Part shown: piece after piece, positions 154-58,259 of the stretch
How the letters are laid out: each line of letters begins with the position of its first letter
Position numbering within the stretch: position 1 is the stretch's first letter
The notes under the pieces: generated by a model
What the model saw: only the letters and a program-made list of their open reading frames with translations
What the model was told of the DNA's origin: nothing
The model's database searches: none
Translations under genes and position numbers: made by a program
Assembly: GCF_018156225.1 (NCBI RefSeq)
Contig: NZ_JAGTAR010000013.1
Location: 1-64,000 of the forward strand
Direction: 5' to 3'
DNA from: Carboxylicivirga sediminis
GTDB taxonomy: Bacteria; Bacteroidota; Bacteroidia; Bacteroidales; Marinilabiliaceae
DNA: 64,000 nucleotides

Positions 154-1353
154 CTATTTTCTTTTTATATTGTTATAGAAAAAACCATAAAGTGAAGTTC
201 CAACTAAAGGAATAATCACAACAATCAGGGAAGCTCGCAAACTAAAGAAATCAGCAACCAAACCATACAAAAGAGGGATGAAAAACCCACCTGAAATAGC
301 CATAATAATAAACGATGAAGCTTCATTAGTAAACTTGCCCAAATCTTTTGTGGCCAGCGCAAAAATAGATGCAAACATTATAGATACGAAAAATCCAATC
401 GCAACAATTGAATAAATCCCGGTTTTTCCAGATGATAACATTGATATAGTAACCAACAATGCAGCTATCAACGCAAAGAACCCAAGTATCTTTGTTGGAT
501 CAATCTTCGTCATAATCCAGGCTCCGAGAAACCTGCCTAACATTAATCCATAGAAAATTATAGCTGAAAGTTTAACGGCCTCAGTACTGCCAATCTTACC
601 TATTTCTTTAAAATAAGGCGTCATTAACTGGTATAAAATGGCTTCGGCTCCCATATACGAAAACATGATAATAAAGCCGATTACAAAATGACGGTATTTA
701 AAAGCACCTTGAATTTTTAAACTTTCAAGCAAATTAGTACCTCTTGTCTCGGTTTTATTTTCGGGCATTTGAGCTGTATGCACTAAAACCGCCAATACTA
801 AAAACACTAGAGCTACCAGTATATAAAAAAATTTAATTCCTCCGAAAATATTTCCTTCATACAATTCCAGTATAAACCACCCACCTAAAGGTGCTGTTAA
901 AGCAGCACCTATTGCTCCAATGCCTTGAGCAAAATTAATTCTCGCTTCACGTGTTTCAGGTGCACCTAAAATTCCGATATATGGATTACATACAGTTTGA
1001 AGGATTGTTACACCACTAAAAATTATAAACAACCCCAAAAGAAAACCATTATAGCTTTGAAAAGAAGCAGCTGGATAAAATATAATTAATCCCACGGCTG
1101 ATAACAGAGCTCCCAGTGATATCGCTTTTTGAGTGCCAATACGATTAATTAGCACTTTTGCCGGATATGCCATTAAAAAGAAAGCCAGAAAAGATAATGA
1201 AGTTCCTAACGATGTCTGAAGATTTGATAGGCTAAAAGTTTCCTGAAAAAATGTTGCTAGTACATTGAATAGATTCCAGACAAAGCCCCACATAAAAAAC
1301 AAGGCATAAATGAGTATCATGGGATATATCACTACTCCCCGTTTAAGATTCAT
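154..1353 (-). CDS. FucP-like MFS sugar permease
   Basis: This 399-residue inner-membrane protein has about 12 hydrophobic segments. It carries the FucP-type start (YALFFMWGFVWNLFNVL) and the NPYI..LG...ARINFAQG.GAIGA pattern around residues 122-150, which is typical of the fucose/glucose:H+ symporter (FGHS) family. It should import a monosaccharide; L-fucose is the natural guess given the fucosidases nearby, but the sugar is not readable from sequence. The FucP-type N-terminal Asp of the 'LND' motif appears as N-V here, so coupling or substrate may differ. It is the last gene of the minus-strand run starting at the glycyl radical enzyme, and a hairpin follows it. The ATG at 1353 is the first good start before the hydrophobic N-terminus. 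Confidence 0.8.
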   Translation of the reverse strand: MNLKRGVVIYPMILIYALFFMWGFVWNLFNVLATFFQETFSLSNLQTSLGTSLSFLAFFLMAYPAKVLINRIGTQKAISLGALLSAVGLIIFYPAASFQSYNGFLLGLFIIFSGVTILQTVCNPYIGILGAPETREARINFAQGIGAIGAALTAPLGGWFILELYEGNIFGGIKFFYILVALVFLVLAVLVHTAQMPENKTETRGTNLLESLKIQGAFKYRHFVIGFIIMFSYMGAEAILYQLMTPYFKEIGKIGSTEAVKLSAIIFYGLMLGRFLGAWIMTKIDPTKILGFFALIAALLVTISMLSSGKTGIYSIVAIGFFVSIMFASIFALATKDLGKFTNEASSFIIMAISGGFFIPLLYGLVADFFSLRASLIVVIIPLVGTSLYGFFYNNIKRK

Positions 1354-1450
1354 AAAGGTTCTTTTTTTAAGGTTTTATTATAATTATGAACATTGACTGC
1401 TTCAACCGTTATTTAACCCTATCGCCTGTATACATTCTTATGGCTTTCGT

Positions 1451-2266
1451 TCAGGCTAAATGATCCCTCAAAAGATCTCTCATTACAATATTTTGAGTCC
1501 ATTGATCAGTAACAGGTCTATAACTAAAAGGCAAAGTCTGCAAATACGGCTCTGGACCAAATTCAGTACAAACCGGAAATTCTGTATAGCCTTTCAATTT
1601 TGCATTTTCAAGTATTCTTTTCCACCATGACAAGTGCGTCTCAATGGCCAACCGGTTATTATCAGACTGCAAATGATTAATCTGTGGCCCTTGTTCATAG
1701 CCCACTCTTGCATGTATAAAGTCAGCTCTTTGGCAGGCCTGTAAAACAATATCATTCTGATCTTTCAATAACGATTCCGATACACAACACCAATGCGAGA
1801 AATCTGCATTGATTCTTAAATCAGGCAGCGCATTGAAGTATTGTTTAGCCATGAGGGTCGAAAAGAGTGCTCGCCCCCTGTGGGTTTCATGGACAATCTT
1901 TACGCCTGTATATTCACCAACTCTTTCTGCGGCCTCAAATATCCTGCAATTCTCTTCAAATGAATAGAAATCCTTCCCTGTATGGGAATTAATAAACAAA
2001 GGGTTAAATGAAGCAAGATAGGAAAAGTATTCTTCCATACGTTCAATATATTCGTCAGGAGTTTCATCTTTGGATTCCAACCATTGCTGGGCAATTAACT
2101 CAAGTTCGTATTGAGGTAATAACTGTCTTATTTTTTCAGCAATGCCTTCATCGAATGAGATATTCATTTCAACACCATCAAAACCAGCATTTTTTACCCT
2201 TTCAAAGAAATGCTCCAATGAAAGATGACTACTTCCCCAGTATGGATAGAAAAATTTAATTTTCAT
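1451..2266 (-). CDS. Sugar phosphate isomerase/epimerase-like TIM-barrel protein
   Basis: This 271-residue cytoplasmic protein belongs to the xylose-isomerase-like TIM barrel (AP endonuclease 2) superfamily. It opens with MKIKFFYPYWGSSHLSLEHF and shows the expected barrel patterns: GFDGVEMN near 28-35, 'INSHTGKDFYSFEE' near 92-105, 'VHETHRGRALFS' near 125-136 and 'INADFSHWCC' near 152-161. The His, Glu and Asp residues at these strand ends are the usual metal and substrate ligands. Members interconvert ketoses or act on keto-sugar and inositol derivatives; the actual reaction is not readable. It sits between the PhyH dioxygenase (48-base gap) and the FucP-like permease, so it probably works on the sugar or product handled by that cassette. 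Confidence 0.75.
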   Translation of the reverse strand: MKIKFFYPYWGSSHLSLEHFFERVKNAGFDGVEMNISFDEGIAEKIRQLLPQYELELIAQQWLESKDETPDEYIERMEEYFSYLASFNPLFINSHTGKDFYSFEENCRIFEAAERVGEYTGVKIVHETHRGRALFSTLMAKQYFNALPDLRINADFSHWCCVSESLLKDQNDIVLQACQRADFIHARVGYEQGPQINHLQSDNNRLAIETHLSWWKRILENAKLKGYTEFPVCTEFGPEPYLQTLPFSYRPVTDQWTQNIVMRDLLRDHLA

Positions 2267-2314
2267 TTATTATCTTCTTTATTACTCATTCAAGATACTC
2301 TGTATTTATGCAGT

Positions 2315-3298
2315 TCACTTAGCCTTTACATCAGAAACCATCATTTCTTTCCAGGTAACATTAAAGCGGTTTGTAACGGGACTTCCTGTGAAATTTTCTC
2401 TCAGATGCTTAAACTCCTCATACGATTTAATAATTTCATTTTTTCTTTTTTTAGACCTTACCAAAAAGTCTGCGTCAGGCGGGTAACACGCTGCAGGAAC
2501 CCCTGCTTTTTTATTTTCTTTTTGGTCACCTTCAAAACGGGTAATATTTGCATTGGTAGGCAAATCTGCACTTTGGTAACGCAAATCCATACTCCATCTG
2601 ACACTATCCGTAGTATTTTTGAAACTAGCATGAATAACCTTATTTGAAAGAAGCAATACTCCACCCTTTGGTACGGGGCATTCGACCCAATTTTCTTTTG
2701 GAAGCAATTCATCCTTTACGGCCAGATACTTTCCGGTTTCATGCATTACATGCTCCACCACATCACCTTTATGGCTACCTGGGATGACGTACAAACATCC
2801 ATTATCAGCATTGGCATCAACCAGAGGAATCCACATGGTCATCACCAAAGCGTCATCACAAAATGGTTCAAAATAACCCGAATCCTGATGCCAGGGAACC
2901 TCACCATATCCAAAATTAGGGATTTTGGGACGAAGTCTGTACACCGAACTTGCAATCACTTCTTCCCCGCAAAATGCCTCAGCAACATCTAATAACTTTC
3001 GATTTGTAATTAGTTCAAAAATAGCCGGGCCATGTAAAATTCCATTCCAGATTGACACTGCAAGTTTGGGTGTTTGACTGCTTATTTTTGCGAGTCTTTT
3101 TTCAAACGGTTCATTCTCATATTTATCAGATAATTCTCCACTTTTAAAGAGTGAATTTGCCCTTATCCCGATTTCCGCATTTAACTCATCAATAACACCC
3201 TGAAGGTCTATGCTTTCAATCACTTTGTCGATTATCAAGTATCCCTCCTCTTTGAAGAATTGCTTTTGCTTATCTGTAACAACGATTTTTTTCTCCAT
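2315..3298 (-). CDS. Phytanoyl-CoA dioxygenase (PhyH) family Fe(II)/2-oxoglutarate oxygenase
   Basis: This protein is about 327 residues long from the ATG at 3298. A longer reading from 3337 would overlap the activase gene, so the internal Met is preferred. The PhyH metal triad is visible as H137-x-D139 in 'PWHQDSGYF' and a distal His223 in 'KVIHASF'. Arg residues in 'SVRWSMDLRYQ' are likely 2-oxoglutarate ligands. 'DNGCLYVIPGSHKGDV' is the usual family segment. The family hydroxylates small molecules using O2, Fe(II) and 2-oxoglutarate; the substrate here is unknown. Its place directly after a glycyl radical enzyme and its activase is odd, because those are destroyed by O2. It may supply an oxic branch of the same pathway. 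Confidence 0.85.
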   Translation of the reverse strand: MEKKIVVTDKQKQFFKEEGYLIIDKVIESIDLQGVIDELNAEIGIRANSLFKSGELSDKYENEPFEKRLAKISSQTPKLAVSIWNGILHGPAIFELITNRKLLDVAEAFCGEEVIASSVYRLRPKIPNFGYGEVPWHQDSGYFEPFCDDALVMTMWIPLVDANADNGCLYVIPGSHKGDVVEHVMHETGKYLAVKDELLPKENWVECPVPKGGVLLLSNKVIHASFKNTTDSVRWSMDLRYQSADLPTNANITRFEGDQKENKKAGVPAACYPPDADFLVRSKKRKNEIIKSYEEFKHLRENFTGSPVTNRFNVTWKEMMVSDVKAK

Positions 3299-3323
3299 AA
3301 ACTGAAATTTATACGATACTATT

Positions 3324-4274
3324 CTACCTGGACACAAAGCCGGTTATTTCAATTTTATTGTTTGAATGTTTTTCCTGAAACTGGTTCATTTTCTTTAAAT
3401 CCGATTCCATATACTTTTTCCCGGTATATCGCCACTTCTGGTTCATTTTAATATACTTATCTTCACAAACATCGTTAAACATACAAAGTTCCCATTTGGT
3501 GAATAGTCCAGTAAGGTTCTTTTCAAGTAGTACTGAAATGGCATTTAAGTTTTCTTGGGTATCAGTAGCATCCGGAATTAATGGCGTACGAATCTGCAAT
3601 TCAGGGGCTCCATATTTTTCTATAAACGACTTAACAACCTGAAGTGAAGCAAGTATTTCTTTTGTACCTTGCCCTGTCAACTGTTTTGCTTTTTCGGCAA
3701 TCAATATTTTCAGATCAAAAAATACCAAATCAATGTAAGGCAGGAGTTCTTGCATCACCTTTTGCGAAACAAATCCGGAGGTATCGAAAGCAGTATGAAT
3801 CCCTTCCTTTTTACATTTTTTCAAAAGCTCAATGCAGAATCTGGAATAAGTGGCAGGTTCACCTCCTGTGAGTGTAACCCCACCACCTGAAGCATCCCAG
3901 AATGGTTTATCTCCCATAATCCTTTCAAATAATTGATCAACTGTATATTCATCTCCCAGTTTTTCTATCGCTTTTGACGGACAGACATTTGCACAAATTT
4001 GGCATCCGGTACACTTTTGTCTATCAACTTTAATTCCTTCTGAGGCCATTGATAACGCCTCTGTCGGGCAAACCTGAACACAAGATTCACAACCGATGCA
4101 TCGCTTGTTAACCACCCAGATCTCCTTCTGCGGTGAAATGCTTTCGGGATTATGACACCACTGGCATTTTAAGGGACACCCCTTAAAGTACACAACGGTA
4201 CGATAACCAGGACCGTTGTGGGTATTTAATGATTCCACCTTAAAAACTATTGCCGTTAATTCATTCACTTTCAA
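3324..4274 (-). CDS. Glycyl-radical enzyme activating protein (radical SAM)
   Basis: This 316-residue cytoplasmic activase installs the glycyl radical on the enzyme encoded just upstream. It has a radical-SAM CxxxCxxC motif (C33, C37, C40) after 'GPGYRTVVYFKGC'. Two inserted ferredoxin-type [4Fe-4S] motifs follow (C59-C62-C65-C69 and C88-C91-C94-C98), as in activases of the PflA/CutD/HypD type with a ferredoxin domain. 'GGVTLTGGEPATY' near residue 130 is the usual SAM-binding 'GGE' strand. The gap to the GRE stop is only 21 bases, so the two are cotranscribed. No in-frame ATG exists near the 5' end; the start is TTG at 4274 or GTG at 4268. Confidence 0.93.
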   Translation of the reverse strand: MKVNELTAIVFKVESLNTHNGPGYRTVVYFKGCPLKCQWCHNPESISPQKEIWVVNKRCIGCESCVQVCPTEALSMASEGIKVDRQKCTGCQICANVCPSKAIEKLGDEYTVDQLFERIMGDKPFWDASGGGVTLTGGEPATYSRFCIELLKKCKKEGIHTAFDTSGFVSQKVMQELLPYIDLVFFDLKILIAEKAKQLTGQGTKEILASLQVVKSFIEKYGAPELQIRTPLIPDATDTQENLNAISVLLEKNLTGLFTKWELCMFNDVCEDKYIKMNQKWRYTGKKYMESDLKKMNQFQEKHSNNKIEITGFVSR

Positions 4275-4295
4275 TCTTTTTCACTATATAGCGAT

Positions 4296-6569
4296 TTATA
4301 AATTCTGGTAATTCACCCGTTCAATAAACTCCTTCTGGAAACGTTTATCCATGGTTACAAAATGACTGGAGTATCCGGTAACTTTTACATTAATATCGTG
4401 ATAAACCGGATTGTCATTGTCATGATATGCTTCTTCTAATATCTTTAAGTCAACTAAATTAAAATTGATTTGAACTCCACCCTTTTTGAAAAATCCAATA
4501 GCAAAGGCTTCCATTAACTTCTCCTTATTAACACCTCCTTTAAAGAAATCCGGTGTTAATTCGATCTGAAATGACCCCCCTTGGAATTTTGCAAAATCAA
4601 GTTTAGTAAATGAATTAACGGTGGCGCCAATACCATTTTTATTCCGCCCGTGCATTGGATTCATCCCATGAGCAAGCGGCTCTTTTGCCAGTCGTCCGTC
4701 AGGTGTAGCTCCCATCATTGGTCCTGCATAGGTGTGTCCCATGTATTGAAAAAGTGATGGTCTGAAACAGAAACCCTTGTTGTTTTGTTTGCTTTCCAAT
4801 ACTTCCCGAACCTGTTCAGAAACCTTGACAGCCATTTCATCCGCTTCTTTATGGTCGTTTCCAAACTTTGGAACGTTCAAAAAATGCTGACGCATCATTT
4901 CATTCTCAGACCAATCGGTTTCCAGGGCTTTTTTCAACTCAGTTAAGGCATATTGCCTTTTACTAAACACCAATTCTTTAATGGCATAAATGGAATCAGA
5001 TACATTGGGAACACCCAGAACATTTACGGAGGTATAGTTATATCTAACCGCCCCTTTATCAGTAACATCTTTACCTTTTTCAATACAATCATGCATGCAA
5101 AAAGAAGTAACCATCTCTGGCCACACTTTTGCCTGCCAATCGTAAGTGGCATTCTTAAACTTCACAAGAGCATCAGCAGTGCAATCAACTTCATGGCAAT
5201 ACAATTCCCAAAATTCATCGAATGAATTAAGGTCTTTTTCTATCGCTCCATCAATTGCCCGTTGCATTGGTTTAATCAGAACAAGACTATTCACATCCTG
5301 ATCGTTATATTCAGTTCCAACCCCGCAATACCACTGACAGCCACTATATGCAACATTCCATGCGTCTTCAGGTTTATAACCACTTCGTACTTCACTAGCT
5401 TTTATCACATCGTAATTAACCAAAATAGGAACACCACAACCATGACGGGTTAATACATCGCAGGCATATTCAAAAAATGCCTCATTCATGTCTTCGTGCC
5501 ACATCACCCCCATGTGGTTTATGCCTCCAACTAGGTCGTATGCCTCCAGACAAACCCAACTCATTTCATTCGTTGCATCAGATAAATCCTGTAATCGGCC
5601 ACCTAATGCGGTATAACTACCATATTTAATGTACATCTCACCGATTATCTCACGAGCAAATTGCCGGGTGATCTTTCCTTCTGCCATATCCTTTTCATAG
5701 AACGACAGTAAAAGCTGGTCCGTACGGCCATAACCGTTTCCATGGCCATGTATTCTTTCTGCCACCTGGAAGAACCAAATCCATTGAACCGCCTCATGCA
5801 AAGTTTGCGGCGCTCTTACTGACAGGTTCTCACAAACTTCGGCAATAGACAGATAGAGATCAATTTGAGAAGCATCGGAGCAACAAGATGCCTTTTCACG
5901 TGCCACATCAGCATGTCGGCAGATAAACCGTTGAATTGATAGGGCAACAATTTCCGAGCCTTTCAGATATTCTACCTGTTCTGTTTTTCCTTCCTTCTCA
6001 AATTTTTCGATGTTTGCCCGCACTTTATCCAACAATCCATTCCAACCTAATTCTAAACCAATACTTAAATCAGGACATGTATGCGTAAAACTAATACCTC
6101 CGGCTCCCAATTCGCGGGCCTCAAATCCTGCCTCCCGCTGCTCCTCTGGATATTGAAAATAGCGTGCTTCATCTAACTGCCAATGAAACTCACCCACAAT
6201 CAATTCATTTTCGTGAACTTCTGCCGGACTGTTATCAATAAAAAAAGCATAGTCTTTTGCCCAGTTCAACGGAGTATATTCAAAATTGCCATTTTTAGAG
6301 GGCATTTCATCTGTTTTAGGAAATGAAATTCCAACATCAACCCGGGCATTATGATCGCCAATTTCAATTCTTTTATCACTATCGCATGCGTGCTCACCTG
6401 TAGCAGGGGAGAATGAGGCTGCCTCTCCTGACCAGTGATATACCAGGAATTCAGCGTTATCGCAATATATGTCTCTTTTTTTATCAATCACCAACTGTAA
6501 CCTTCTATCAATTAAGGCTTGCATCCTATAATCAGGTACAAATTTCTTAGCCACTTCCTTTTCCTTCAT
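4296..6569 (-). CDS. Glycyl radical enzyme (PFL-like) of unassigned reaction
   Basis: This 757-residue protein has the full pyruvate-formate-lyase-like architecture. The N-terminal PFL domain carries the thiyl-radical cysteine at C411 (SGCQWYC). A C-terminal loop 'VKVTGYSSHF' holds the radical glycine G732. The late 'ATPDGRLAKEPLAHGMNP' and 'GATVNSFTKLDF' segments are typical of the family. Diol and hydroxyproline dehydratases and CutC carry GCxE, with the Glu acting as base. Here the position is Trp (GCQW), so the enzyme is unlikely to be a standard glycerol/propanediol dehydratase, choline lyase or HypD. C415 lies four residues after C411. The next gene is its activase, followed by PhyH, an isomerase-like protein and a FucP-like permease. 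An AraC regulator is divergent, with tandem repeats between the two starts. A sugar or sugar-derived substrate is inferred. Confidence 0.9.
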   Translation of the reverse strand: MKEKEVAKKFVPDYRMQALIDRRLQLVIDKKRDIYCDNAEFLVYHWSGEAASFSPATGEHACDSDKRIEIGDHNARVDVGISFPKTDEMPSKNGNFEYTPLNWAKDYAFFIDNSPAEVHENELIVGEFHWQLDEARYFQYPEEQREAGFEARELGAGGISFTHTCPDLSIGLELGWNGLLDKVRANIEKFEKEGKTEQVEYLKGSEIVALSIQRFICRHADVAREKASCCSDASQIDLYLSIAEVCENLSVRAPQTLHEAVQWIWFFQVAERIHGHGNGYGRTDQLLLSFYEKDMAEGKITRQFAREIIGEMYIKYGSYTALGGRLQDLSDATNEMSWVCLEAYDLVGGINHMGVMWHEDMNEAFFEYACDVLTRHGCGVPILVNYDVIKASEVRSGYKPEDAWNVAYSGCQWYCGVGTEYNDQDVNSLVLIKPMQRAIDGAIEKDLNSFDEFWELYCHEVDCTADALVKFKNATYDWQAKVWPEMVTSFCMHDCIEKGKDVTDKGAVRYNYTSVNVLGVPNVSDSIYAIKELVFSKRQYALTELKKALETDWSENEMMRQHFLNVPKFGNDHKEADEMAVKVSEQVREVLESKQNNKGFCFRPSLFQYMGHTYAGPMMGATPDGRLAKEPLAHGMNPMHGRNKNGIGATVNSFTKLDFAKFQGGSFQIELTPDFFKGGVNKEKLMEAFAIGFFKKGGVQINFNLVDLKILEEAYHDNDNPVYHDINVKVTGYSSHFVTMDKRFQKEFIERVNYQNL

Positions 6570-6649
6570 AATTGTTTGTTATATTTGACGATCTAAACTT
6601 TTTATATATTCTTAAAATCTAAAAGAACACTATATCAGTTAAATATTAA

Positions 6650-6677
6650 ATGCACATATCAAACATTCACATGCACA
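6650..6677. promoter_or_regulatory. Tandem ATGCACA repeats, probable AraC operator
   Basis: ATGCACA occurs at 6650-6656 and again at 6671-6677. The starts are exactly 21 bases apart (two helical turns), which is the usual geometry of AraC-family half-sites. The pair lies between the divergent AraC gene (ATG at 6689) and the GRE gene (ATG at 6569), about 80-110 bases upstream of the latter. It is a good candidate for the regulator's binding site, though this rests on spacing alone. Confidence 0.5.
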
Positions 6678-6688
6678 ATCTTAACTAA

Positions 6689-7516
6689 ATGGCAATAGAT
6701 TCATTCGAATGCAAGATAATCACTGGCGGTTATAGCCATTGCGATAGTTCATGGAATAAAAGAAGAGATGAGCTTGACCAGTGTTTTAAAATATATATTC
6801 CAACCGAAGGAGAAGCCTCTATTCGAATCAAAGACGTAGATTATTGCATAAACTCTAACAACATCTATTTCATCTCAGGGTTCCAACTAAATAACCAAAA
6901 GTGTGATTCATTTATGAAAGTATATTGGCTCCATTTCATCCCAACATCGCTTTACTTACGTAGGATTTTAATGAATTCAGCCCCATTCTTTTCATGGAAG
7001 AAAGAAAACGTCCACTTTCTCGATGAAAAAAGCAGCTATATAAAATCCTTGTTCAAACCAAACTACAAGGACACAACTTTCATTTCACAGATACCCTACT
7101 CGTATGAAGAAGCCAAGTTGCATGCTTTCATCCTAAGTTTAATTGCAGATGTATTGAAACATAATTCCAAAGCTGAGATATCCCCCACAACAGAGCTAAT
7201 GATCTTAAAACCAGCTATAGATTTTATGAATAATGAATTCAGACGCAACCCGGCATTGGAAGAAATTGCTAAGAAATCAAACCTTGCACCAAATTACTTT
7301 CACAGGCTATTCAAAAAGAATTTTGGTTTAACCCCACTGAACTATATGTTACGAATGCGAATGGAAATAGCGGTAAGACTCTTAACAACCACCGCTAAAA
7401 GTGTGAAAGAAATTGCTTATGAGGCAGGATATAATAACGAATTTTATTTCTACAGGCAATTCAAGAAACATTATAACTACAGCCCTGGAAGATTGAAAAA
7501 AATGAGACCTTTTTAA
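6689..7516 (+). CDS. AraC-family transcriptional regulator of the GRE cassette
   Basis: This 275-residue regulator has an N-terminal cupin-like ligand domain (about residues 1-165) and a C-terminal AraC double helix-turn-helix from about 178. The latter includes 'LEEIAKKSNLAPNYFHRLFK' and 'VKEIAYEAGYNNEFYFYRQF'. It is transcribed divergently from the GRE operon with 119 bases between starts, and tandem 7-base repeats sit just upstream of its ATG. It probably senses a sugar or sugar derivative and switches on the GRE operon. It is one of only two genes on the plus strand, and both are AraC regulators. A strong hairpin follows it. Confidence 0.88.
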   Translation: MAIDSFECKIITGGYSHCDSSWNKRRDELDQCFKIYIPTEGEASIRIKDVDYCINSNNIYFISGFQLNNQKCDSFMKVYWLHFIPTSLYLRRILMNSAPFFSWKKENVHFLDEKSSYIKSLFKPNYKDTTFISQIPYSYEEAKLHAFILSLIADVLKHNSKAEISPTTELMILKPAIDFMNNEFRRNPALEEIAKKSNLAPNYFHRLFKKNFGLTPLNYMLRMRMEIAVRLLTTTAKSVKEIAYEAGYNNEFYFYRQFKKHYNYSPGRLKKMRPF

Positions 7517-7536: not shown

Positions 7537-7576
7537 AAGCTTTGCTACTGATGTTAACACATCAGCAGCAAAGCTT
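7537..7576. terminator. Bidirectional terminator hairpin between convergent genes
   Basis: A 17-base stem with one mismatch (7537-7553 against 7560-7576) and a six-base loop TTAACA lies between the AraC stop (7516) and the GH95 stop (7649) on the opposite strand. Flanking A/T runs on both sides suit termination in both directions. Confidence 0.8.
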
Positions 7577-7648: not shown

Positions 7649-10057
7649 TTATTTATAATCAGCTGCATGTAATTTAATACAATCACCAATATTACCATTA
7701 AATTCTTTTTCAATTTCCTTATAACGAATTTTACAATTCGTGCCTGTTTTTGAATAAATAACTGCTTCAACTAATTCATTATCCCTCCATTTGATATCCA
7801 CTTCAAAACCTCCTCTGGCTAGCAGTCCTTTTACTTCGCCGGTTGTCCATTCAAACGGCAAGGCAGGTAATAAATGTATAGTTTCATCATGGCTTTGGAT
7901 TAACATTTCTGCGATTCCTGCTGTTGCTCCAAAGTTGGCATCCATCTGAAAAGGAGGGTGTAGTCCAAATAAATTGGGAGAAGTACTTTTCTCCAAAACA
8001 GTGTTCAGGCTTTCTTTTGCTTTCTCTGCCTGATTCAATCGAGCATATTGACTTATCAGCCAGGCTGCGCTCCATCCGGTATGCCCCCCTCCGTTGGCAA
8101 TCCTGTAATCCAGTGATTTTTGTGCAGCTTTTGCTAATTCAGGTGTATTCTCCAAACTAATTTGTCTTCCCGGATGCAAGGCAAAAAGGTGAGATATATG
8201 GCGGTGTCCTGGTTCCACCTCCGGAAATTCTTCTGCCCATTCCATTAAACGGCCATCAGATCCAATCTGTGGACCGGCAAGCAAATTTATGGCTTGTTTC
8301 ACTTCCTGAACGGTTGTATTTTCAAGTTCAAGTTCCTCGGAAGCAAAAATAAAATCAGAAAAAAGCTGCCATATTACCTGTTGGTCATGAGCTGGCCCCA
8401 TGCTTATCTGACTTCGGCTACCATCAGGCGCAATAAAACTATTCTCTGGTGAAACTGCCGGACCGGAAACCAACTTACCGGTTTTTGGATCAGCAACTAA
8501 CCAATCCAAATAAAACTCTACCGCTCCTTTCAAAACAGGGTACATTCTTCTCAAAAAATCTTTATCATCGGTAAACAAATAATGTTCCCCGATGTGAGAA
8601 CAAATCCAGGCACTTCCTCCTGTGTGCATTCCCCAACTGGCCATTTCGCCCGGCGAAGTGTATCCCCATACATTTGTAATGGGGTGAATAACCCAACCCT
8701 TGTTCCCGTATTGTACCTGCGCCGTTTTCTCACCTGGCTTTACCAATGATTCAATTAAATCAAATAATGGCAAATGCATTTCCGATAGGTTGGTCACTTC
8801 TGCTGGCCAGTAATTCATTTCCACATTTACATCGGTATGGTAATCTCCGTTCCATGGTGTCTGGATTTTATTGGCCCAAATTCCTTGTAAATTAGCCGGC
8901 AATGTTCCTGGTCTGGACGAAGAAATTAAAAGATAACGCCCATATTGAAATAACAACTCAACTAAGTGAGGGTCTGATTTTGTTTTCTTAAAATCGATTA
9001 CACGTTGGTCAGTTGCAAAATTAATGTTATTTTCTGGGGTTAAATCAATACTTACCCTGTTAAAATAGGCCTGGTATTCTTTCTTGTGAGTGTCCAGTAA
9101 CTCCTGATATGGCCTACTTATAGCACGTTCAATATTTTCGTTTGTTATCTTCTCGTACTCCCTTCCTTTATATTCAGGATAACTCAACACATAGTCTGTT
9201 GATGCTGTAAGAAAAAGCACAACTTCATCGGCATTTTCAACAATTACTGTTGAATCGGTATAGCTTACTGAACCATTTTTGCAGACTGCTTTTAACCGTG
9301 CCATGTATTGTAATCCGTTTCCTCCCTTACCATCAGAAAGAGCACCTGACATTACCAACTGATCATTTTCCGAATATGTTTTAAACCTTTCAGGGCGACT
9401 CATTGAACATTTGAAAGAAATCTGACCCATTTTATCTGCAGTAAAACGGGCAACCATCGCCTGATCCGGTTGGCTTGTAAATATTTCCCTTTGATAATTA
9501 ACCCCATCCTGTAAATATTTTACGCGAACTACGGCATCATTCAGATCCAGTTCCCTGTAATAATTCTCATAGCCAGTTGTTTTTCCGTTTTCAATCCACA
9601 GATCGCCAAGTGTTTGAAAACAACCAAATGGGACTTCTGCACCATTGCCATGCCCGGAACCTTTTCCGACACAAATTTGGGTCTTGTTTGTTAACTCAGT
9701 GGCTTCTTTATACTTTCCTTCAAAAAGTAATTGGCGTATCTTTGCCTGGGCTTCCTTTGCCACGGGATTGTCATTGACATCAACGCTACCCGACCACATG
9801 CTTTCTTCATTTAACTGAATGCGCTCCTTATTTACATCGCCAAAAACCATTAGCCCTAACGAACCATTGCCCAAAGGCAGGGCTTTCAACCACTCCGGAT
9901 CGTCTTTCCATCCATCGGGAGAGTCTTTTACTGTAGCATCAGCCGGTTGGTTATACCAGAGCTTTAGAGCTTTAGAGCTTGTTTCTTTCTTTTCGTTGGT
10001 ACATGAAAAAAGAACCAGCATGATGAATAAGGAGGATAAGTGTCTTTTAATTTTCAT
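7649..10057 (-). CDS. GH95 alpha-L-fucosidase (lipoprotein)
   Basis: This 802-residue exo-enzyme removes terminal alpha-L-fucose (typically alpha-1,2), or in some members alpha-L-galactose. The N-terminus is an SPII lipoprotein signal (LVLFSC, C19). It has the GH95 order: an N-terminal beta-sandwich starting at 'LPLGNGSLGLMVFGD', an (alpha/alpha)6 barrel with 'NLQGIWANK', then a C-terminal beta domain. By eye against Bifidobacterium AfcA, the general acid is E538 (VSPENSF) and the base-assisting Asp is D706 (QMDANFG). The Asn pair maps to D409-V-N411, so the first Asn is replaced by Asp. It is the last gene of the fucose locus, 24 bases after the GH29 stop, and meets the AraC gene tail to tail. 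Confidence 0.9.
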   Translation of the reverse strand: MKIKRHLSSLFIMLVLFSCTNEKKETSSKALKLWYNQPADATVKDSPDGWKDDPEWLKALPLGNGSLGLMVFGDVNKERIQLNEESMWSGSVDVNDNPVAKEAQAKIRQLLFEGKYKEATELTNKTQICVGKGSGHGNGAEVPFGCFQTLGDLWIENGKTTGYENYYRELDLNDAVVRVKYLQDGVNYQREIFTSQPDQAMVARFTADKMGQISFKCSMSRPERFKTYSENDQLVMSGALSDGKGGNGLQYMARLKAVCKNGSVSYTDSTVIVENADEVVLFLTASTDYVLSYPEYKGREYEKITNENIERAISRPYQELLDTHKKEYQAYFNRVSIDLTPENNINFATDQRVIDFKKTKSDPHLVELLFQYGRYLLISSSRPGTLPANLQGIWANKIQTPWNGDYHTDVNVEMNYWPAEVTNLSEMHLPLFDLIESLVKPGEKTAQVQYGNKGWVIHPITNVWGYTSPGEMASWGMHTGGSAWICSHIGEHYLFTDDKDFLRRMYPVLKGAVEFYLDWLVADPKTGKLVSGPAVSPENSFIAPDGSRSQISMGPAHDQQVIWQLFSDFIFASEELELENTTVQEVKQAINLLAGPQIGSDGRLMEWAEEFPEVEPGHRHISHLFALHPGRQISLENTPELAKAAQKSLDYRIANGGGHTGWSAAWLISQYARLNQAEKAKESLNTVLEKSTSPNLFGLHPPFQMDANFGATAGIAEMLIQSHDETIHLLPALPFEWTTGEVKGLLARGGFEVDIKWRDNELVEAVIYSKTGTNCKIRYKEIEKEFNGNIGDCIKLHAADYK

Positions 10058-10081
10058 ATTCGATTGTTTAAAATAAATAGA

Positions 10082-11962
10082 TTAAGGCTCAATTTTTATT
10101 TCTGCTATTCTCACCACGTTCTGCCCGCGTGTTGCAGAAAGCATCACATACCGCAAATATCGGCCTTTTGCCAGTTTGTGGAGGGTTACGGATTGTGGCA
10201 CAGGATTATTATCCACGTTTCCATTCTTACCTTCACCCACTTTAAAATTGATATTTTCCGGATCATTGCCAACATACACTTCAAATCGTTCTACCCTACC
10301 AGGCTCTTCCGGACTTCCCTGAGGAGGAATGTAAGTAAACACTGACAAGGTTGTTTCTTCTCCCAAATCGATATCAATGTAAGCAGGCTTTCCATCTTTC
10401 AATTCTCCTTTCCAACAGGTATTCAGGTCTCCATCCTTAATGGCAGCATCTGTTTTCCAGTTATCCCTGGATAAATCTTTTTTCTGATTGATTATGTTAG
10501 GCTCTATCAACTCAGGTACTTTCAATAGTTTTACAGTTGCCAAACTTGGCGACAAACGGGAAGAAAGAATCCGAATTCGAATCTTATCTGTAGTGGTTGA
10601 TTTTACTCTTTGAATTCGTCTAAAACCAACGGTAGTATTTTTTACCAACTCCCTCCACCTGCCATCTACCATGGCATCCACTGCAAATGCTTCAATTCGC
10701 TGTCCGAAGTCAGCCACCATTTCCTGAAGATAAACAGCATCGAAAGTTTGTTCTCCGTATAGATTAATCACTATTTCTGCTGTTTCAATCCCTTCAGGAG
10801 CCACCCAACCGGTACGGATATCATCGTCAAACATATAACTTACATTGTAACCGCCCTCACCAGTTGGAGTCGTTTCGGCCCTGGCGCCCAAAGCGTAATT
10901 ATGTCCCGTCAACTCTCTTCTCCAGTCACCAAAAGCCTTCATTACTGCCATATCTTCTTCTGGAACTAAGCCGGTAGTATCAGGAGACATATTCAGTATT
11001 ACTCCGGAATTACAGCCAATGGTACTAAAAAATGACTCAGCAAGATAGTTTAACGAACGTACTTTCTCCAATGGATTCCAGAACCATTTGGTATGAACAG
11101 GTAAACCACCCCTTGCCGGCATCCAGGTTAATTGCCTGAGTTTAGAAGTATCTCCGGTCATATCATCAATTCCTTTTAATGTCATTAACTGACTAATATC
11201 ACCTAATTCAGGTGCCATTGTAGGTACACCGGCATGTGCACCCGGGAAATCTTTTGTATCATAAACAACCCCTTGCACACACCATTCTGTTGTGCGCCCC
11301 CGACCGGCTTCATTTCCAACCCAACGCACATCAGGGCCAACACCTGAAATAACAGCCGAAGGTTGTAACTTATGAATGGTAGCATGTATCCTGTCCCAGT
11401 CAAAATCCATTTCAACACCACTAACTTTAGTACTGATACCTGCACCATCAAACCATACTACATCCACTGCGCCGTAATTGGTCAATAGTTCCGTCAATTC
11501 ATCCACCATCAAATCGTTATAAGCAGACGTCCCGTATGGTTCCTGTTTATCCCACGGAGAATAGTACACGCAAAAACGAAGTCCGTGCCTCTGGGCTGCT
11601 TCCGACACTTCTTTTACCAAATCTCCCTTACCTTCTTTATAAGGTGTTTTAGAAATATTTCTGGGGTGATAAGAACTGGGCCACAACCGGAACCCATCGT
11701 GATGTTTGCACACCATAATCACCGACTTTACACCTGCTGCGACAAAAGCTTCCATCCATTGGTCAACATTCACACTCTTTGGATTAAAAATGCTTAGGTC
11801 TTCCACTCCCGTTCCCCACTGTCTTCCGGTAAAGGTGTTCAGGTTAAAGTGAATAAACCCCATAGTTCCATATTCCTGGTAGCGAAGTTGTTTGGCAGAT
11901 GGCCTTACTGCAGCCGCCAGCTTAATCATTTCTTCTTTCGTCACATTCTCCGGTATTAACAC
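10082..11962 (-). CDS. GH29 alpha-L-fucosidase with C-terminal discoidin-like domains, separated from its signal peptide by a stop codon
   Basis: The open part (626 residues from a GTG at 11962) covers the whole GH29 catalytic barrel. The fucose-pocket His is in 'GFIHFN' and the His pair is in 'CKHHDGF'. The nucleophile is D172 (VVWFDGAG) and the likely acid/base Glu is in 'RWVGNEAG'. Two F5/8-type carbohydrate-binding-like regions follow from about residue 350 ('LTGHNYALGARAETTPTG') and about 480. It lacks a signal peptide, but an in-frame 30-codon signal-peptide segment lies directly upstream, cut off by a single TAA at 11975-11977. The catalytic part may therefore be translated poorly, stay cytoplasmic, or be a fresh pseudogene. 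Alternatively the TAA may be a sequencing error for CAA (Gln). Confidence 0.85.
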   Translation of the reverse strand: MLIPENVTKEEMIKLAAAVRPSAKQLRYQEYGTMGFIHFNLNTFTGRQWGTGVEDLSIFNPKSVNVDQWMEAFVAAGVKSVIMVCKHHDGFRLWPSSYHPRNISKTPYKEGKGDLVKEVSEAAQRHGLRFCVYYSPWDKQEPYGTSAYNDLMVDELTELLTNYGAVDVVWFDGAGISTKVSGVEMDFDWDRIHATIHKLQPSAVISGVGPDVRWVGNEAGRGRTTEWCVQGVVYDTKDFPGAHAGVPTMAPELGDISQLMTLKGIDDMTGDTSKLRQLTWMPARGGLPVHTKWFWNPLEKVRSLNYLAESFFSTIGCNSGVILNMSPDTTGLVPEEDMAVMKAFGDWRRELTGHNYALGARAETTPTGEGGYNVSYMFDDDIRTGWVAPEGIETAEIVINLYGEQTFDAVYLQEMVADFGQRIEAFAVDAMVDGRWRELVKNTTVGFRRIQRVKSTTTDKIRIRILSSRLSPSLATVKLLKVPELIEPNIINQKKDLSRDNWKTDAAIKDGDLNTCWKGELKDGKPAYIDIDLGEETTLSVFTYIPPQGSPEEPGRVERFEVYVGNDPENINFKVGEGKNGNVDNNPVPQSVTLHKLAKGRYLRYVMLSATRGQNVVRIAEIKIEP

Positions 11963-11974
11963 CGATGTACCTTC

Positions 11975-12067
11975 TTAGTAGGTATTTTCCACGTACTTAA
12001 TGCCTGTTTCCTGTGCATGGGAAAAAAGGAAAAAAACCATAAAACCAACGGCTAATATATATTTCAT
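11975..12067 (-). pseudogene. Orphaned signal peptide of the GH29 gene, ending in an in-frame TAA
   Basis: From the ATG at 12067, 30 codons encode MKYILAVGFMVFFLFSHAQ followed by ETGIKYVENTY. This is a clear SPI signal peptide with probable cleavage after SHA. TAA then occurs at 11977-11975. The frame continues without interruption (E-G-T-S-V-L-I-P-E) into the GH29 enzyme. The ATG is 14 bases after the stop of the preceding gene, which matches operon spacing and supports this as the original start. Reading the stop as CAA would restore one 661-residue secreted protein. Confidence 0.75.
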
Positions 12068-12081
12068 AAGAAAATAGGCGT

Positions 12082-13260
12082 TTAATTACTAATTTCAGGT
12101 TGAATACGAAATCCGTGAAGTACAGTCCAGGAATTGCCTTCTGCATTAAAACCACTGGGTAAAAACATATAAGCAGGCACGCCATCAACCTTGATTACTT
12201 TTGGCCGTTCAAACTTATTATTGGCATATACCGCTTTCCCTTTACTGAAGTCTTGCTCAGGAAACATAACAGGACGCGTTTCCCAGGCAACAGATGTTGG
12301 AGTCATTTTTATTTCACCTGTCTTTTCAAAATGCGACTGGTCCATCTCGCAATAAATACCTCCATTTTCAGCATACATCCCAAAGTTATCACACATAGTT
12401 GCAACGATATTACCATCTTCTGCTACAAACGCACAGAGGTCTTCAACTTTTTTTCCCGGAGGTGGGGCAAAAACCGGCACCATCTGTTCAACATAAGGTC
12501 CTTCCAGGCTTTCTGCCACAGCTACACCCAAAGAAGTATTATTCATAAGTCTGCCATTAATTTCATAAAGTCTGGGACAATACATAAAGAACAAATAATA
12601 TTTATCGTTGTATTTAACCAGCGATGGATTATCAGTGCCGCGTAAACTATTATAAGATGGAACCCCCTCAACAAGCGACTTCTGCATTATCATGCCACAA
12701 TCTTTCCATGGCCCACCCGGCTTTTCAGCCATTCTCAATCCTATTTTTCCTTCAGCTCCGGTGTTTATTCCAGGATAGGAAAGATAAGTCAATACATATT
12801 TTCCATCAATTCTTTTCACTTCAGGATTATGTGCTGTGTAGCGATTCCACACCCCCTCTTTATCTCCTCCCGGCCTGGATGGAATAATGTTCTTTACAAA
12901 AGAATAAGGACCTTCTGGATTCTCGGCAATAAAGTAATTCACTTCAGATTCAACATCCCAGGCACCAAAACCATATTCTGCTGACCACTGACAAGCATAC
13001 ATATGATATTTACCATCATCTCCCTGAACGACTGAAGTACCCCATGTATGATAATCTGGCCTATCCAGGATGACACCCAAATATTCTAAACGGTCTATAA
13101 ACTCTCTGGTAATTTTGGGTGGAATTGCAGTATCAGTTGCATTAACCATCACGTTAGTTTCTGACTTTCCTGCTTCAGAGCCTTTTTTTTGTTTGCAGGC
13201 TACCAAATTGAAACTGCCCAGTATAAGAATGGCAATACCAATTAAATAATTATATCTCAT
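12082..13260 (-). CDS. Lipoprotein glycoside hydrolase, five-bladed beta-propeller type (GH43/GH117-like)
   Basis: The protein is 392 residues from the ATG at 13260. A longer frame would run into the upstream gene's stop at 13286, so this start is preferred. It has an SPII signal ending in LVAC (C22). Repeated blade motifs are seen: 'YHTWGTSVVQGDDGKYHMY', 'AHNPEVKRIDGKYVLTY', 'TDNPSLVKYNDKYYLFF' and 'FERPKVIKVDGVPAYMF'. These resemble clan GH-F enzymes, with Asp, Asp and Glu available on three blades. The family cannot be settled by eye. It lies between a GH95-like enzyme and a GH29 fucosidase, so it probably removes another sugar or an anhydro-sugar from the same fucose-rich glycan. Confidence 0.65.
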   Translation of the reverse strand: MRYNYLIGIAILILGSFNLVACKQKKGSEAGKSETNVMVNATDTAIPPKITREFIDRLEYLGVILDRPDYHTWGTSVVQGDDGKYHMYACQWSAEYGFGAWDVESEVNYFIAENPEGPYSFVKNIIPSRPGGDKEGVWNRYTAHNPEVKRIDGKYVLTYLSYPGINTGAEGKIGLRMAEKPGGPWKDCGMIMQKSLVEGVPSYNSLRGTDNPSLVKYNDKYYLFFMYCPRLYEINGRLMNNTSLGVAVAESLEGPYVEQMVPVFAPPPGKKVEDLCAFVAEDGNIVATMCDNFGMYAENGGIYCEMDQSHFEKTGEIKMTPTSVAWETRPVMFPEQDFSKGKAVYANNKFERPKVIKVDGVPAYMFLPSGFNAEGNSWTVLHGFRIQPEISN

Positions 13261-13285
13261 CTGCTTTCTTTTGGTAATTGTTCGA

Positions 13286-15796
13286 TTAAAAATTCCTTTC
13301 TTTTCCAAGTACAGCTTCTTTGAAATGTTTTGGTTGATTGTTTTGAATACTTTTAAAAACAGTATTAGTCATTGACGGCTTTGTTCCTTTCATCACAATA
13401 ATGTATTTTCCCAATGCTTTTGTGTCAAATACAATAACGCCATCTTTTTCCTGTTTTACCTTAACTACAGATTCATCATTCCCATTCAATACATCAACCC
13501 TTTGCCCTGGCCAAGGATTAACCAATTTACAAGTACTTCCCTTTAAACTTTCAATATGAACCGTTTTAACAACTCCCTCCTTCATTTCCGATGAAACGAT
13601 GAACGCCCCTCTAGCCCGAAGCTTAAACGCAGGATTCCATCCTTCTGGAACAGCAGGGAATACCCTGATTTTGCCTCCGTTACTTTGCAGCAACATCTCA
13701 TTGATTGTTGAAGTACATATGCTCATTGGCTCTAATCCACATTGGATAAACGGCTTTGCAGGATGCCCCTTTTCGTATTTACATCGCTCATCATAGATAT
13801 AGTCACGCTGAGTGGTAATATCCGGTGTTTTAACGGAATCTGCATACAGTGACAAATAATACCAATGGTCAATGTTATAAAAAAGGCCCTGTGGAAAGTG
13901 CTGCAAACGTCGAACCTGGTTGGTTATTCGCTCCAAAGCAACATCGCCTAAGCCCAAGCGAGCTGCCACTATCGGATCGGGTGATATGGCATTTTTAGAA
14001 GGTGAATGGCTCTTTACAACATTGGCGGCAGCATTGTACTCCCGGCTCCCTTTTTGGTCAATGCCAATAATATTTGTAGGAAAGACCAACAAAGTGTTAG
14101 CGCTGAAATGATTGGTCCAGTCTCCATAGTCTTCTTTTTTAGGATAAACCGATCCATCCTGGTTATAGCCCAATTGCATGATTTCTCCAATACCTTCCTC
14201 TTCTCTGAAGGGAATAGGCCACAAATGGTCAATGATATGCTGCCATTCTTTAACTTTTTTATTGTCTCTTTCCAGTATTTTTGCAGAAGAAATGCAGGCA
14301 GTCATCGTTGAAATGATCATATTACGGTCTGTAATCGTATTCTTCAGTTTGTTAGAACGTGGACTCTCATACGGCTGCGAAGGAGATATAAAAAACTCAT
14401 TTTTAGATTTATCCCACTGCAATGTCTGCACATAAAATTCAGCAGCTTTCTTCAAAAAAGGATAGGCTTTCTTTTCTAAAAATACAGTATCACAGGTATA
14501 TTGAAAATACTCCCAAAAGAATCCGGCAATCTGACTGGCAGGCGTAAAGTTATTAATCATATCCCCCCTGTCCCAGAAGGTCATACGACCAAAAAAATCG
14601 TGTGCCTCACTCCAAAGGATAGCATTGTCAGCGCCCCGCATTTTAGCATGTTTCTCGGCTTCTGGCATAATCCGGTAATAAGTATCTAAATACGGAAGCA
14701 TTAATTCGCAATCATTCTGCGGTGCCAATCCCCAGTATTGTTGTTGTGTATTCCAATGGTGAGGCGTCACCCAATTTCTAACATCATGGTTCCAGGTCCA
14801 TAGCCCGCCGTTAAAAACAACAGGATACTTTCCTCTTGAGCTGCTTCCCATCAAATAACGACGCAGGTAATATAAATTTTCTAAATAACCCGCATCAATC
14901 TTTACAAAAGACTTGCCCCAAAACGATTTCCACCAGTCATGGTGTGCCAGCTTTTCCCGTTCAACACCCACTGACTCTGCCTCATCCAATAGCTTAATTG
15001 CCTCTTTAGTGGGAGCATCAGATTCATTTGATGTTACAAGTGCAATCATAATTGTCACTGTGTGAGCTCCGCCAAGTCCGGTAGTTAATTCAGCTCTGTT
15101 TTCACTAACTTTTTCGGCACTCACCGGGGCACCAATCAAACGGCATGCTACGGTAAAATCCAATCCATCAAAGCACTCCTCCAAAACAATATCATTGCCA
15201 ATTGTAATGGCCTTTGAGTTCCCAATACCAATCTGGGTATTACCAGTATATCCGCCATACCAGCCTGGAAAAGCTCTGCTACCATACCTTTCAAGAGTAG
15301 TTCGAAGTTTCGTTTCACGGCTCCCTTTACTATCTGCCGTGACCTCCACAAACCATACATTTTTGTTGGCCGACACCCAAGTTCTTATATCACTCTCCAT
15401 AAAAGGGGTTATTGATTTTATTGAAACATCCGCATTTTGAAGAGAAAGACGACCATCGTAGTCATCTAGGTAAAGCCAATCAAATACCGGTGCTCCAAAA
15501 TCAATACTTAGTCTTGCCCCTCCTCGTAATGTAGCCCCTGCCTCTTTATTTGGCTGATCAAATAAATCATTTTTATTTATTTGAATCTCCAGGCCGTTAA
15601 CATTTGACCACACCATGCCTCCTAAATCACCATTCCCAAGCGGAAATCCCTCGAAGCCTTCATAAGCAGGTGTTTTATATACCACATCGTGTTTATTTAA
15701 ATATGTTTCACTATCAACACCAAATACTAAATTTGAATCTTGGGCGTAGACAATCGTGCAACATAAAAGAGCAACTATAAAAGAATAATATCTCAT
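13286..15796 (-). CDS. GH95-like secreted glycosidase with atypical active site
   Basis: This 836-residue protein has an SPI signal (MRYYSFIVALLCCTIVYAQ). The N-terminal beta-sandwich carries 'FPLGNGDLGGMVWS' and an (alpha/alpha)6 barrel follows from about residue 290, the same fold order as GH95. By-eye alignment shows departures. The region of the first catalytic Asn reads 'HHWNTQQQYW' (His in place of Asn/Asp, second Asn kept). The 'SPEN' acid motif reads 'ISPSQPYES'. The base position in 'GLEPMSICTSTINEMLL' is Glu instead of Asp. It is likely a glycosidase related to GH95/DUF5703 proteins with a different sugar or linkage, but the activity is not known. It is part of the fucose locus operon, 22 bases after the previous GH95-like gene. 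Confidence 0.65.
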   Translation of the reverse strand: MRYYSFIVALLCCTIVYAQDSNLVFGVDSETYLNKHDVVYKTPAYEGFEGFPLGNGDLGGMVWSNVNGLEIQINKNDLFDQPNKEAGATLRGGARLSIDFGAPVFDWLYLDDYDGRLSLQNADVSIKSITPFMESDIRTWVSANKNVWFVEVTADSKGSRETKLRTTLERYGSRAFPGWYGGYTGNTQIGIGNSKAITIGNDIVLEECFDGLDFTVACRLIGAPVSAEKVSENRAELTTGLGGAHTVTIMIALVTSNESDAPTKEAIKLLDEAESVGVEREKLAHHDWWKSFWGKSFVKIDAGYLENLYYLRRYLMGSSSRGKYPVVFNGGLWTWNHDVRNWVTPHHWNTQQQYWGLAPQNDCELMLPYLDTYYRIMPEAEKHAKMRGADNAILWSEAHDFFGRMTFWDRGDMINNFTPASQIAGFFWEYFQYTCDTVFLEKKAYPFLKKAAEFYVQTLQWDKSKNEFFISPSQPYESPRSNKLKNTITDRNMIISTMTACISSAKILERDNKKVKEWQHIIDHLWPIPFREEEGIGEIMQLGYNQDGSVYPKKEDYGDWTNHFSANTLLVFPTNIIGIDQKGSREYNAAANVVKSHSPSKNAISPDPIVAARLGLGDVALERITNQVRRLQHFPQGLFYNIDHWYYLSLYADSVKTPDITTQRDYIYDERCKYEKGHPAKPFIQCGLEPMSICTSTINEMLLQSNGGKIRVFPAVPEGWNPAFKLRARGAFIVSSEMKEGVVKTVHIESLKGSTCKLVNPWPGQRVDVLNGNDESVVKVKQEKDGVIVFDTKALGKYIIVMKGTKPSMTNTVFKSIQNNQPKHFKEAVLGKERNF

Positions 15797-47906: not shown

Positions 47907-47960
47907 GATTATTGATTTTTCAACAACAAACCTTAGAAACAACAGAGTACAGAAGGAATC

Positions 47961-49292: not shown

Positions 49293-49418
49293 TTTAAATT
49301 TGATAGTGCATGTTACTGCATATTAACATTGTTGCTACATTGCTAATCCAGGCAAATAAACTCAATCAAATTAATAAGTTATAGCCTGGATTAACATCTG
49401 CGCTTTCAGCTTTATTTT

Positions 49419-50447: not shown

Positions 50448-50458
50448 TGCTATTTAAA

Positions 50459-51217: not shown

Positions 51218-51306
51218 TTTCGTTTCATTTTTAAGTTGATTACTGTAAAAATATAGTTACTTTGATTAAATGTTATTCTAAAAAATACCATAGCACTAAA
51301 TCAAAC

Positions 51307-52194: not shown

Positions 52195-52276
52195 TTAACA
52201 GAAGTTCACTTGTTCGTTATGAAATATCTTTGCAGAACAACAAACTGGCTGTTTTGAAGAAAGGTGACAAGTTGTG

Positions 52277-54652: not shown

Positions 54653-54780
54653 AGTTTTAATCTTAGTTAATAATTGTCTAGTATAGTAATTGAAAATTCC
54701 ACAAAAATCAATGATTTTCAGAATCACGTATGAAGCCCTCTGATGGTGTTAGAGTATTAGAGCAGTTATTCTAATAACAA

Positions 54781-54811
54781 TGCAGGAATCCTCTGGAATA
54801 GGATTCCTGCA
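54781..54811 (-). terminator. Terminator hairpin downstream of the GH5 gene
   Basis: A perfect 12-base stem (TGCAGGAATCCT at 54781-54792, AGGATTCCTGCA at 54800-54811) with a seven-base loop lies about 65 bases after the GH5 stop and before the phosphoesterase start. It separates the two transcripts. Confidence 0.7.
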
Positions 54812-54874
54812 ATCTTTATAAGTTATATACTCACTTATTGAGGTCGTTTAATTCATACGAATTCCTTCATTCTC

Positions 54875-56482: not shown

Positions 56483-56523
56483 AATTCTTATAGTTTAATT
56501 TTTAATTCGTGTAACAATTGAGG

Positions 56524-56531
56524 CAAACATA
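56524..56531 (-). promoter_or_regulatory. Possible -7 element upstream of GH5
   Basis: TATGTTTG on the minus strand matches TAnnTTTG and sits about 42 bases before the GH5 ATG. No TTTG is found at the matching upstream distance, so this is only a weak promoter candidate. Confidence 0.3.
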
Positions 56532-56649
56532 TACTTAAAACTCTTATTATCCTTACTTTAGGTATATATACAACCATAGAGGTATAAACGTGTATAACAT
56601 GGTATCAACTAAACAGATGGTTAATAGCTGGAATACATAGAATATTCAG

Positions 56650-57675: not shown

Positions 57676-57697
57676 AATACATTAATTTAAGATCATT

Positions 57698-58198: not shown

Positions 58199-58259
58199 TA
58201 TACATAAAATATTAGACTAAGAATATCATTTCAATTGCAAGTAAATAATAGACCTTCAA

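Follow-up and report, generated by a model that had tools for sequence, protein, structure and literature searches.

Glycyl radical enzymes (GREs) of the eliminase type use as a base the glutamate located two positions after the catalytic cysteine (Cys+2), and glycyl radicals are destroyed by O2. The described enzymes closest to the one analyzed here are the B12-independent glycerol and 1,2-propanediol dehydratases. GREs with sugar-sized substrates include YbiW and PflD, which reportedly belong to a ring-opening pathway, and fucose itself is the province of the canonical fucI-fucK-fucP operon. Here we analyze a 64,000-nucleotide stretch of the Carboxylicivirga sediminis genome (contig NZ_JAGTAR010000013.1, positions 1 to 64,000; hereafter the window) in which a GRE with tryptophan at the Cys+2 position is encoded in one run with its activase, a PhyH-family oxygenase, a TIM barrel protein and a sugar permease, next to a divergent AraC-family regulator and a locus rich in fucosidases.

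Three GREs are encoded in this genome, and the cassette enzyme has the lowest PF02901 score among them. It falls below every NCBIfam equivalog cut-off (PFL, CutC, HypD, HpsG/HpfG, HPAD and IAD) and reaches 338 bits against TIGR01774, for which the cut-off is 678; the homologous GREs of Sunxiuqinia (locus L012), Treponema (L028) and WS1 (L032) are likewise far under all equivalog cut-offs. Named genomes searched with a three-sequence alignment yielded 26 family loci with 48-84% identity over the best segments, L016 and L018 among them being contigs of genomes already counted. The family is represented in Bacteroidota, Treponema and other Spirochaetota, Clostridiales, Chloroflexi, Phycisphaerales, Victivallales, WS1, Desulfobulbaceae, Chlorobiota and Pontiella. 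It was detected in one of 296 genomes of a phylum sample, namely the window's own (1e-100), in 3/295 genomes of the order sample, own included (1e-70), in 4/241 genomes from the order of genome G602, all already known, and in 2/240 from the class of the Pontiella genome, where one new locus (L133) was found. In a quick tree with flagged long branches, the 25 family rows form a single clade (SH-aLRT 100) against 41 other GREs of the same genomes.

The motif YSGCQWYC is present in all 26 readable family members, so that the glutamate expected of an eliminase at Cys+2 is replaced by tryptophan in 26/26; in 42 distinct other GREs, the same column holds glutamate in 35, a PFL-type CVS motif in six and CHW in one. 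The CHW-bearing GRE (L098) groups with the family on a long branch, and its placement is unsure. We take Cys411 to be the thiyl site and Gly732 the radical site, with Trp413 at the glutamate position. In the AlphaFold2 model (predicted local distance difference test score, pLDDT, 85.5; predicted template modelling score 0.90), C411 and G732 lie at the tips of strand pairs, the arrangement of solved GREs. The closest solved folds are the glycerol and propanediol dehydratases (template modelling scores 0.79-0.81, 23-25% identity). H163 and H276 align with the histidine pair of the dehydratases and are invariant in 23/23 members, and the active-site aspartate corresponds to D423 in one alignment and to D425 in another, both being invariant; presumably, these residues have the same active-site roles as in GRE eliminases. 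The PFL-like and Gly_radical domains, the catalytic cysteine, the glycine loop and the GRE fold that define the superfamily are all present. As judged by sequence comparison, the cassette GRE is a real, conserved subfamily that is unnamed in NCBIfam, and no description of this family or of the gene set was found among the open-licence papers listed in literature searches. An earlier sequence-only reading had named tight clustering of the GRE with a known group as grounds for its own refutation; by the profile scores and the separate clade, there is no such clustering. Identification of the enzyme as PFL, HypD, CutC or another named GRE is ruled out by the profile scores.

Several other divergent GREs are encoded in the same genomes (L084, L085, L088, L090, L091, L092, L094, L097-L100 and L102) and carry CWE, CYE, CTE, CME, CCE, CGE, CLE or CHW motifs. 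In Phycisphaerales, two GREs lie about 2 kb apart (L029:7572-14340), the second being 27% identical to the window GRE. Two copies from metagenome-assembled genomes (MAGs) are interrupted, a GRE with an in-frame stop (L019:846-3119) and a split activase (L013:12318-13282); error and decay are indistinguishable in both.

The features of the cassette and its immediate surroundings are as follows:

154..1353, minus strand: major facilitator superfamily (MFS) sugar permease of the FucP/GluP family (MFS_1; fucP 184 bits, gluP 196 bits, both below cut-off)
1451..2266, minus strand: xylose-isomerase-like TIM barrel protein of the sugar isomerase/epimerase type (PF01261)
2315..3298, minus strand: PhyH-family Fe(II)/2-oxoglutarate oxygenase (PF05721, 97 bits)
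3324..4274, minus strand: activase of the GRE, a radical SAM protein with two additional ferredoxin-type clusters (TIGR02494)
4296..6569, minus strand: GRE of the CQW subfamily, with Cys411, Trp413 and Gly732 (PF02901 and PF01228)
6570..6688, no strand: divergent intergenic region with a conserved block towards the AraC gene (alignment of 6 sequences)
6689..7516, plus strand: divergent AraC-family regulator (HTH_18)
7537..7576, minus strand: terminator-like hairpin of 18 pairs with a T-rich tail, past the 3' end of the minus-strand GH95 gene (pattern match only)
7649..15796, minus strand: glycoside hydrolase (GH) genes of the fucosidase-rich locus adjoining the cassette, namely GH95, GH29, GH43-like and GH95-like (Pfam)

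The five minus-strand genes run from the GRE through activase, PhyH and TIM barrel to the permease with gaps of 21, 25, 48 and 97 bases, and a further 119 bases separate the GRE from the AraC gene; all six genes are intact, with the Pfam set MFS_1, AP_endonuc_2, PhyH, Radical_SAM and Fer4, PFL-like and Gly_radical, and HTH_18. Gene coordinates, domains and signature residues agree with the layout initially proposed for this run and its divergent regulator. The PhyH gene starts with the ATG at 3298, in place of the TTG at 3337 given in the open reading frame list. Base 1 of the window is also base 1 of the contig, and the sequence 3' of the permease gene is therefore missing. An AraC gene divergent from the GRE, 58-61% identical to that of the window, is found in L012, L013, L014, L015 and L019; AGTTAAGAT is invariant in 6/6 aligned GRE-AraC intergenic regions, which are 119-122 bases long. 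The surrounding locus contains GH29, GH95-type, GH20, NAGLU and sulfatase genes, which suggests fucosylated, N-acetylglucosamine-containing, sulfated glycans as its substrates. A uroporphyrinogen decarboxylase (URO-D)-family gene is located within this fucosidase/sulfatase locus (21895-23058). A second sugar module of the window (46509-62085) encodes a GFO/IDH/MocA dehydrogenase, a Sugar_tr permease, a SIS protein, an aldo-keto reductase, a ureidoglycolate-lyase/DUF4867 protein, a Zn-dehydrogenase, a FucU-type mutarotase and a ROK protein; homologs of its reductase, DUF4867 and dehydrogenase genes are found upstream of the GRE in L008.

The activase scores 271.7 bits against TIGR02494, above the cut-off of 174.35, and contains CX3CX2C at residue 33 and two CxxCxxCxxxC motifs. 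In the PhyH protein, the HxD...H...R motif (H137, D139, H223 and R234) is invariant in 4/4 aligned orthologs; these are the metal triad (HxD...H) and the 2-oxoglutarate-binding arginine of the family, and the protein should need O2. The TIM barrel residues E126, D154, H184 and E234, also invariant in 4/4, are the likely metal set. The AlphaFold2 model of this protein (pLDDT 79.8) is best matched in Foldseek by D-tagatose and L-ribulose 3-epimerases at 14-16% identity, and sequence searches against PDB were at chance level (E 0.18; best E 0.014, an IolE protein). The likeness of the model to 3-epimerases and to sugar isomerases related to them is compatible with more than one reaction. The permease had been read as FucP-like. 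It does belong to the FucP/GluP family, but it misses both cut-offs (184.3 bits vs 280.4 for TIGR00885, FucP; 196 vs 203 for gluP), and the permease of L035 passes TIGR00885 with 387.8 bits.

Across the family, the common core consists of the GRE and the activase, a homolog of the latter being present in 22 of the 27 clustered loci, the window included. The full order GRE-activase-PhyH-TIM-MFS recurs in 2/26 loci, several of which are incomplete, namely L012 (Sunxiuqinia) and L019 (a MAG), where GH29 genes come after the permease. Joint conservation of the five genes thus holds for a narrow Bacteroidota clade, but elsewhere the GRE and activase stand alone or near other sugar importers. The sequence-only reading had counted a lack of such conservation as refuting it, and this objection applies by half. 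GRE and activase are followed by a FucP-like gene in L013 and L015, and accompanied by a FucP-type permease in L020 and L035; a Sugar_tr-type permease is found near the GRE in L008, L017, L034 and L133, an SSF symporter upstream of it in L029, and sugar ABC importer parts in L025, L026 and L028. In L014, GRE, activase and PhyH precede a RhaT gene, in the place of TIM and FucP, and a URO-D-like gene. The Treponema locus L028 continues beyond the importer with FGGY kinase, FucI, LacI-type and FucU genes, a FucI gene lies about 6.6 kb upstream of the GRE in L036, and a GH29 gene abuts the GRE in L021. Two families of additional proteins were noted in these neighborhoods. A conserved 122-aa protein, hydrophobic by eye and 70% identical between the two loci, is encoded between the activase and the sugar permease (L034:13238-13606 and L133:6806-7174), the L034 copy having no Pfam match. 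Homologous proteins of 400 and 403 aa are encoded near the GRE in Victivallales and WS1 (L031:10386-11588 and L032:13360-14571), the former without a Pfam match at 1e-5.

We searched the flanks of family loci (3-22 kb) and of 20 loci of other GREs from the same genomes (5-20 kb) for fucose markers, defined as profiles for GH29, GH95, FucI, FucU and FucP-like proteins at 1e-8, with profile seeds taken in part from family loci. A marker was found near 13/28 family loci and 1/20 control loci (p=0.003), and near 10/28 vs 1/20 when the permease was excluded as a cassette member (p=0.016). The L-fucose isomerase family PF07881 is present in 21 of the 25 GRE genomes vs 42 of the 198 genomes of the order sample; within Bacteroidota only, it is found in 9/11 GRE genomes (p ~5e-5), the groups being unmatched for genome size. 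A fucose-type sugar is the best-supported context of the cassette, as far as gene neighborhoods can tell. On the same contig, at about 111-117 kb, L-fucose isomerase, L-fuculokinase and FucP are encoded, all above cut-off, together with a class II aldolase that is below the fucA cut-offs; therefore, the cassette would be an accessory route, added to normal fucose use. The sequence-only reading had postulated an uncharacterized route for a fucose-like sugar beside a fucosidase-rich locus. The marker enrichment, the L035 permease and the GH genes support the sugar class, but with a canonical fucose set on the contig the cassette cannot be the sole route.

We tentatively favor, while granting it somewhat less than an even chance, an accessory AraC-controlled cassette for a fucose-type 6-deoxyhexose with the GRE as an anoxic arm and the PhyH-TIM pair as an oxic arm. 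The sugar, freed by the neighboring fucosidases, would enter via the cassette permease. Without O2, the activase would set the glycyl radical on G732, the radical would move to C411, and the GRE might perform an eliminase-like C-O (or other C-X) cleavage of the sugar or a close derivative. It would do so without the usual Cys+2 glutamate, with the histidine pair and aspartate retained. The retained residues suggest that the leaving group is still protonated, and the absent glutamate could mean that a base of this kind is dispensable at the radical carbon, as may be the case for a ring or ether carbon. In the presence of O2, where the GRE would be destroyed, the PhyH protein might attack the same sugar and the TIM barrel protein isomerize or cleave the product, and the products of either arm would join metabolism elsewhere. 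A bolder version, which we consider distinctly unlikely, is that one bond of a fucose derivative is broken by two unrelated chemistries, a new-class tryptophan GRE without O2 and an Fe/2-oxoglutarate oxygenase with the TIM barrel protein in its presence, a desaturase-family oxygenase taking over in Pontiella and a relative; that bond could be a methyl ether.

The distribution of the oxygenase and TIM genes bears on the two arms. Loci from Treponema, Clostridiales and elsewhere have GRE and activase but neither PhyH nor TIM, and at 1e-20 the TIM family is absent from the Treponema and Clostridiales GRE genomes. All three GRE genomes among the 295 of the order sample have the TIM family (6/295 overall), unlinked in two of them. 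In L034 (Pontiella) and L133, the TIM gene is paired with an overlapping gene of the fatty acid desaturase family, non-homologous to PhyH, beside AraC, GRE and activase, and a fragmentary desaturase-TIM version is found in L120, also in the Pontiella genome. Across 16 TIM loci, the partner is PhyH in seven, of the desaturase type in three and neither in six. An invariable pairing of TIM with an oxygenase thus fails, being seen in only 10/16 loci. Haem-copper oxidase genes are present in 11/25 GRE genomes, and PhyH in the GRE operon is found in 4 of these 11 vs 0 of the 14 others (Fisher 0.026, shared ancestry uncorrected). Together, these patterns suggest a common task for the GRE, the TIM protein and the oxygenase, which would not by itself make the latter two an alternative to the GRE.

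Several observations weigh against the fucose assignment or the two arms. More than half of the family loci (15/28) have no fucose marker in the available flanks, and L014 carries a RhaT-type transporter. The TIM family is present in 9/25 GRE genomes and absent at 1e-20 from 16/25, and TIM stands alone in three GRE-less genomes of the order, all among the six partnerless loci. The association of PhyH with oxidases rests on one clade, and the single gene run gives no hint of separate oxygen control. PhyH-TIM pairs apart from the GRE do exist (L121, L122, L123 and L124), but their PhyH is of another type (24-28% identical where matched) and all sit in GRE-carrying genomes, which makes the two-arm idea weaker; no genome with PhyH-TIM and without the GRE was seen. 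In the 295 order genomes, PhyH orthologs at 1e-60 were limited to the window's own, and no PhyH-only cassette was found.

The same distribution invites the fairly unlikely explanation that oxygenase, TIM barrel and GRE act sequentially, or on different substrates of one regulon, and not as two routes for one step. The closely spaced genes of the single run, their common promoter region and the failure to see PhyH-TIM in any genome without the GRE would fit this arrangement. However, O2 destroys glycyl radicals, many loci have the GRE and activase without PhyH-TIM, and a simple linear pathway is hard to reconcile with an O2-requiring family next to an enzyme that O2 inactivates. Also in favor of this explanation, Pontiella has high-affinity oxidases and oxidase activity, according to its description (PMC7356697). 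The same source reports that Pontiella sulfatireligans, which carries the GRE, converts L-fucose to 1,2-propanediol as a main product, and this disfavors another explanation, in our estimate improbable, in which the GRE would be a diverged (S)-1,2-propanediol dehydratase clearing the propanediol of the FucI-FucK-FucA route. Such a function would agree with the nearest solved structures, by sequence and by fold, being propanediol and glycerol dehydratases and with co-occurrence with the FucI family, but the Cys+2 glutamate is replaced in every readable member, a sugar permease would be superfluous, and no aldehyde dehydrogenase or shell protein was found among the profile-scanned GRE neighbors, no genome-wide search having been made.

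A last alternative, quite improbable in our view, is that the cassette acts on an O-methylated fucose or rhamnose, from which PhyH would free the methyl as formaldehyde with O2 and the GRE would cleave the ether without it. The PhyH-TIM pairs of L121 and L124 sit with URO-D-like, homocysteine methyltransferase, MetH-activation-like and (in L124) corrinoid-binding genes, together a methyl-transfer set, the L124 methyltransferase and activation genes being assigned by eye through resemblance to their L121 counterparts, and URO-D-like genes occur near family GREs in L013, L014 and L036 and in the fucosidase locus of the window. However, the enrichment of URO-D-like genes is not significant (3/28 vs 0/20, p=0.26; 4/28, p=0.13, if the window gene, at a distance of about 15 kb, is counted), the cassette of the window yielded no corrinoid gene, and no GRE cleaving a methyl ether was found among the papers listed in literature searches. 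In their own right, the PhyH-TIM clusters L121:4137-11421 and L124:4583-12343, which include a GntR-like regulator (by eye) and a homocysteine S-methyltransferase, look like demethylation sets.

With its catalytic-base position invariantly altered in members from many phyla, the clade offers a well-defined, testable instance of what may be new radical chemistry. Should the oxygenase arm indeed do the same job as the GRE, the cassette would place under one promoter the enzymes that carry out a single sugar step with and without O2, and add a step to the use of fucose-type sugars.

Compared with the described systems, the cassette GRE shares with the B12-independent glycerol and 1,2-propanediol dehydratases (PDB 1r8w, 5i2a/5i2g) the fold, the cysteine and glycine loops, the histidine pair and the aspartate, but differs in sequence (23-25% identity), in tryptophan in place of the Cys+2 glutamate and in the sugar-importer context. 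YbiW and PflD, with 1,5-anhydrohexitol-6-phosphates (8id7 and 8id0), resemble the proposed enzyme as GREs with a sugar-sized bound substrate, but are 21-23% identical to it, and PflD keeps CVE in the 8id0 alignment. Within the same genome, the HypD-like GRE of L001 has an SGCIE motif and reaches 985 bits of the HypD cut-off of 1100 over a 648-aa stretch, whereas the cassette GRE scores 264 bits. Finally, the canonical fucI-fucK-fucP operon on the same contig deals with the same sugar class, but its permease passes the fucP cut-off (544.8 bits) that the cassette permease misses (184.3), and, unlike the cassette, no radical enzyme or oxygenase is seen in it.

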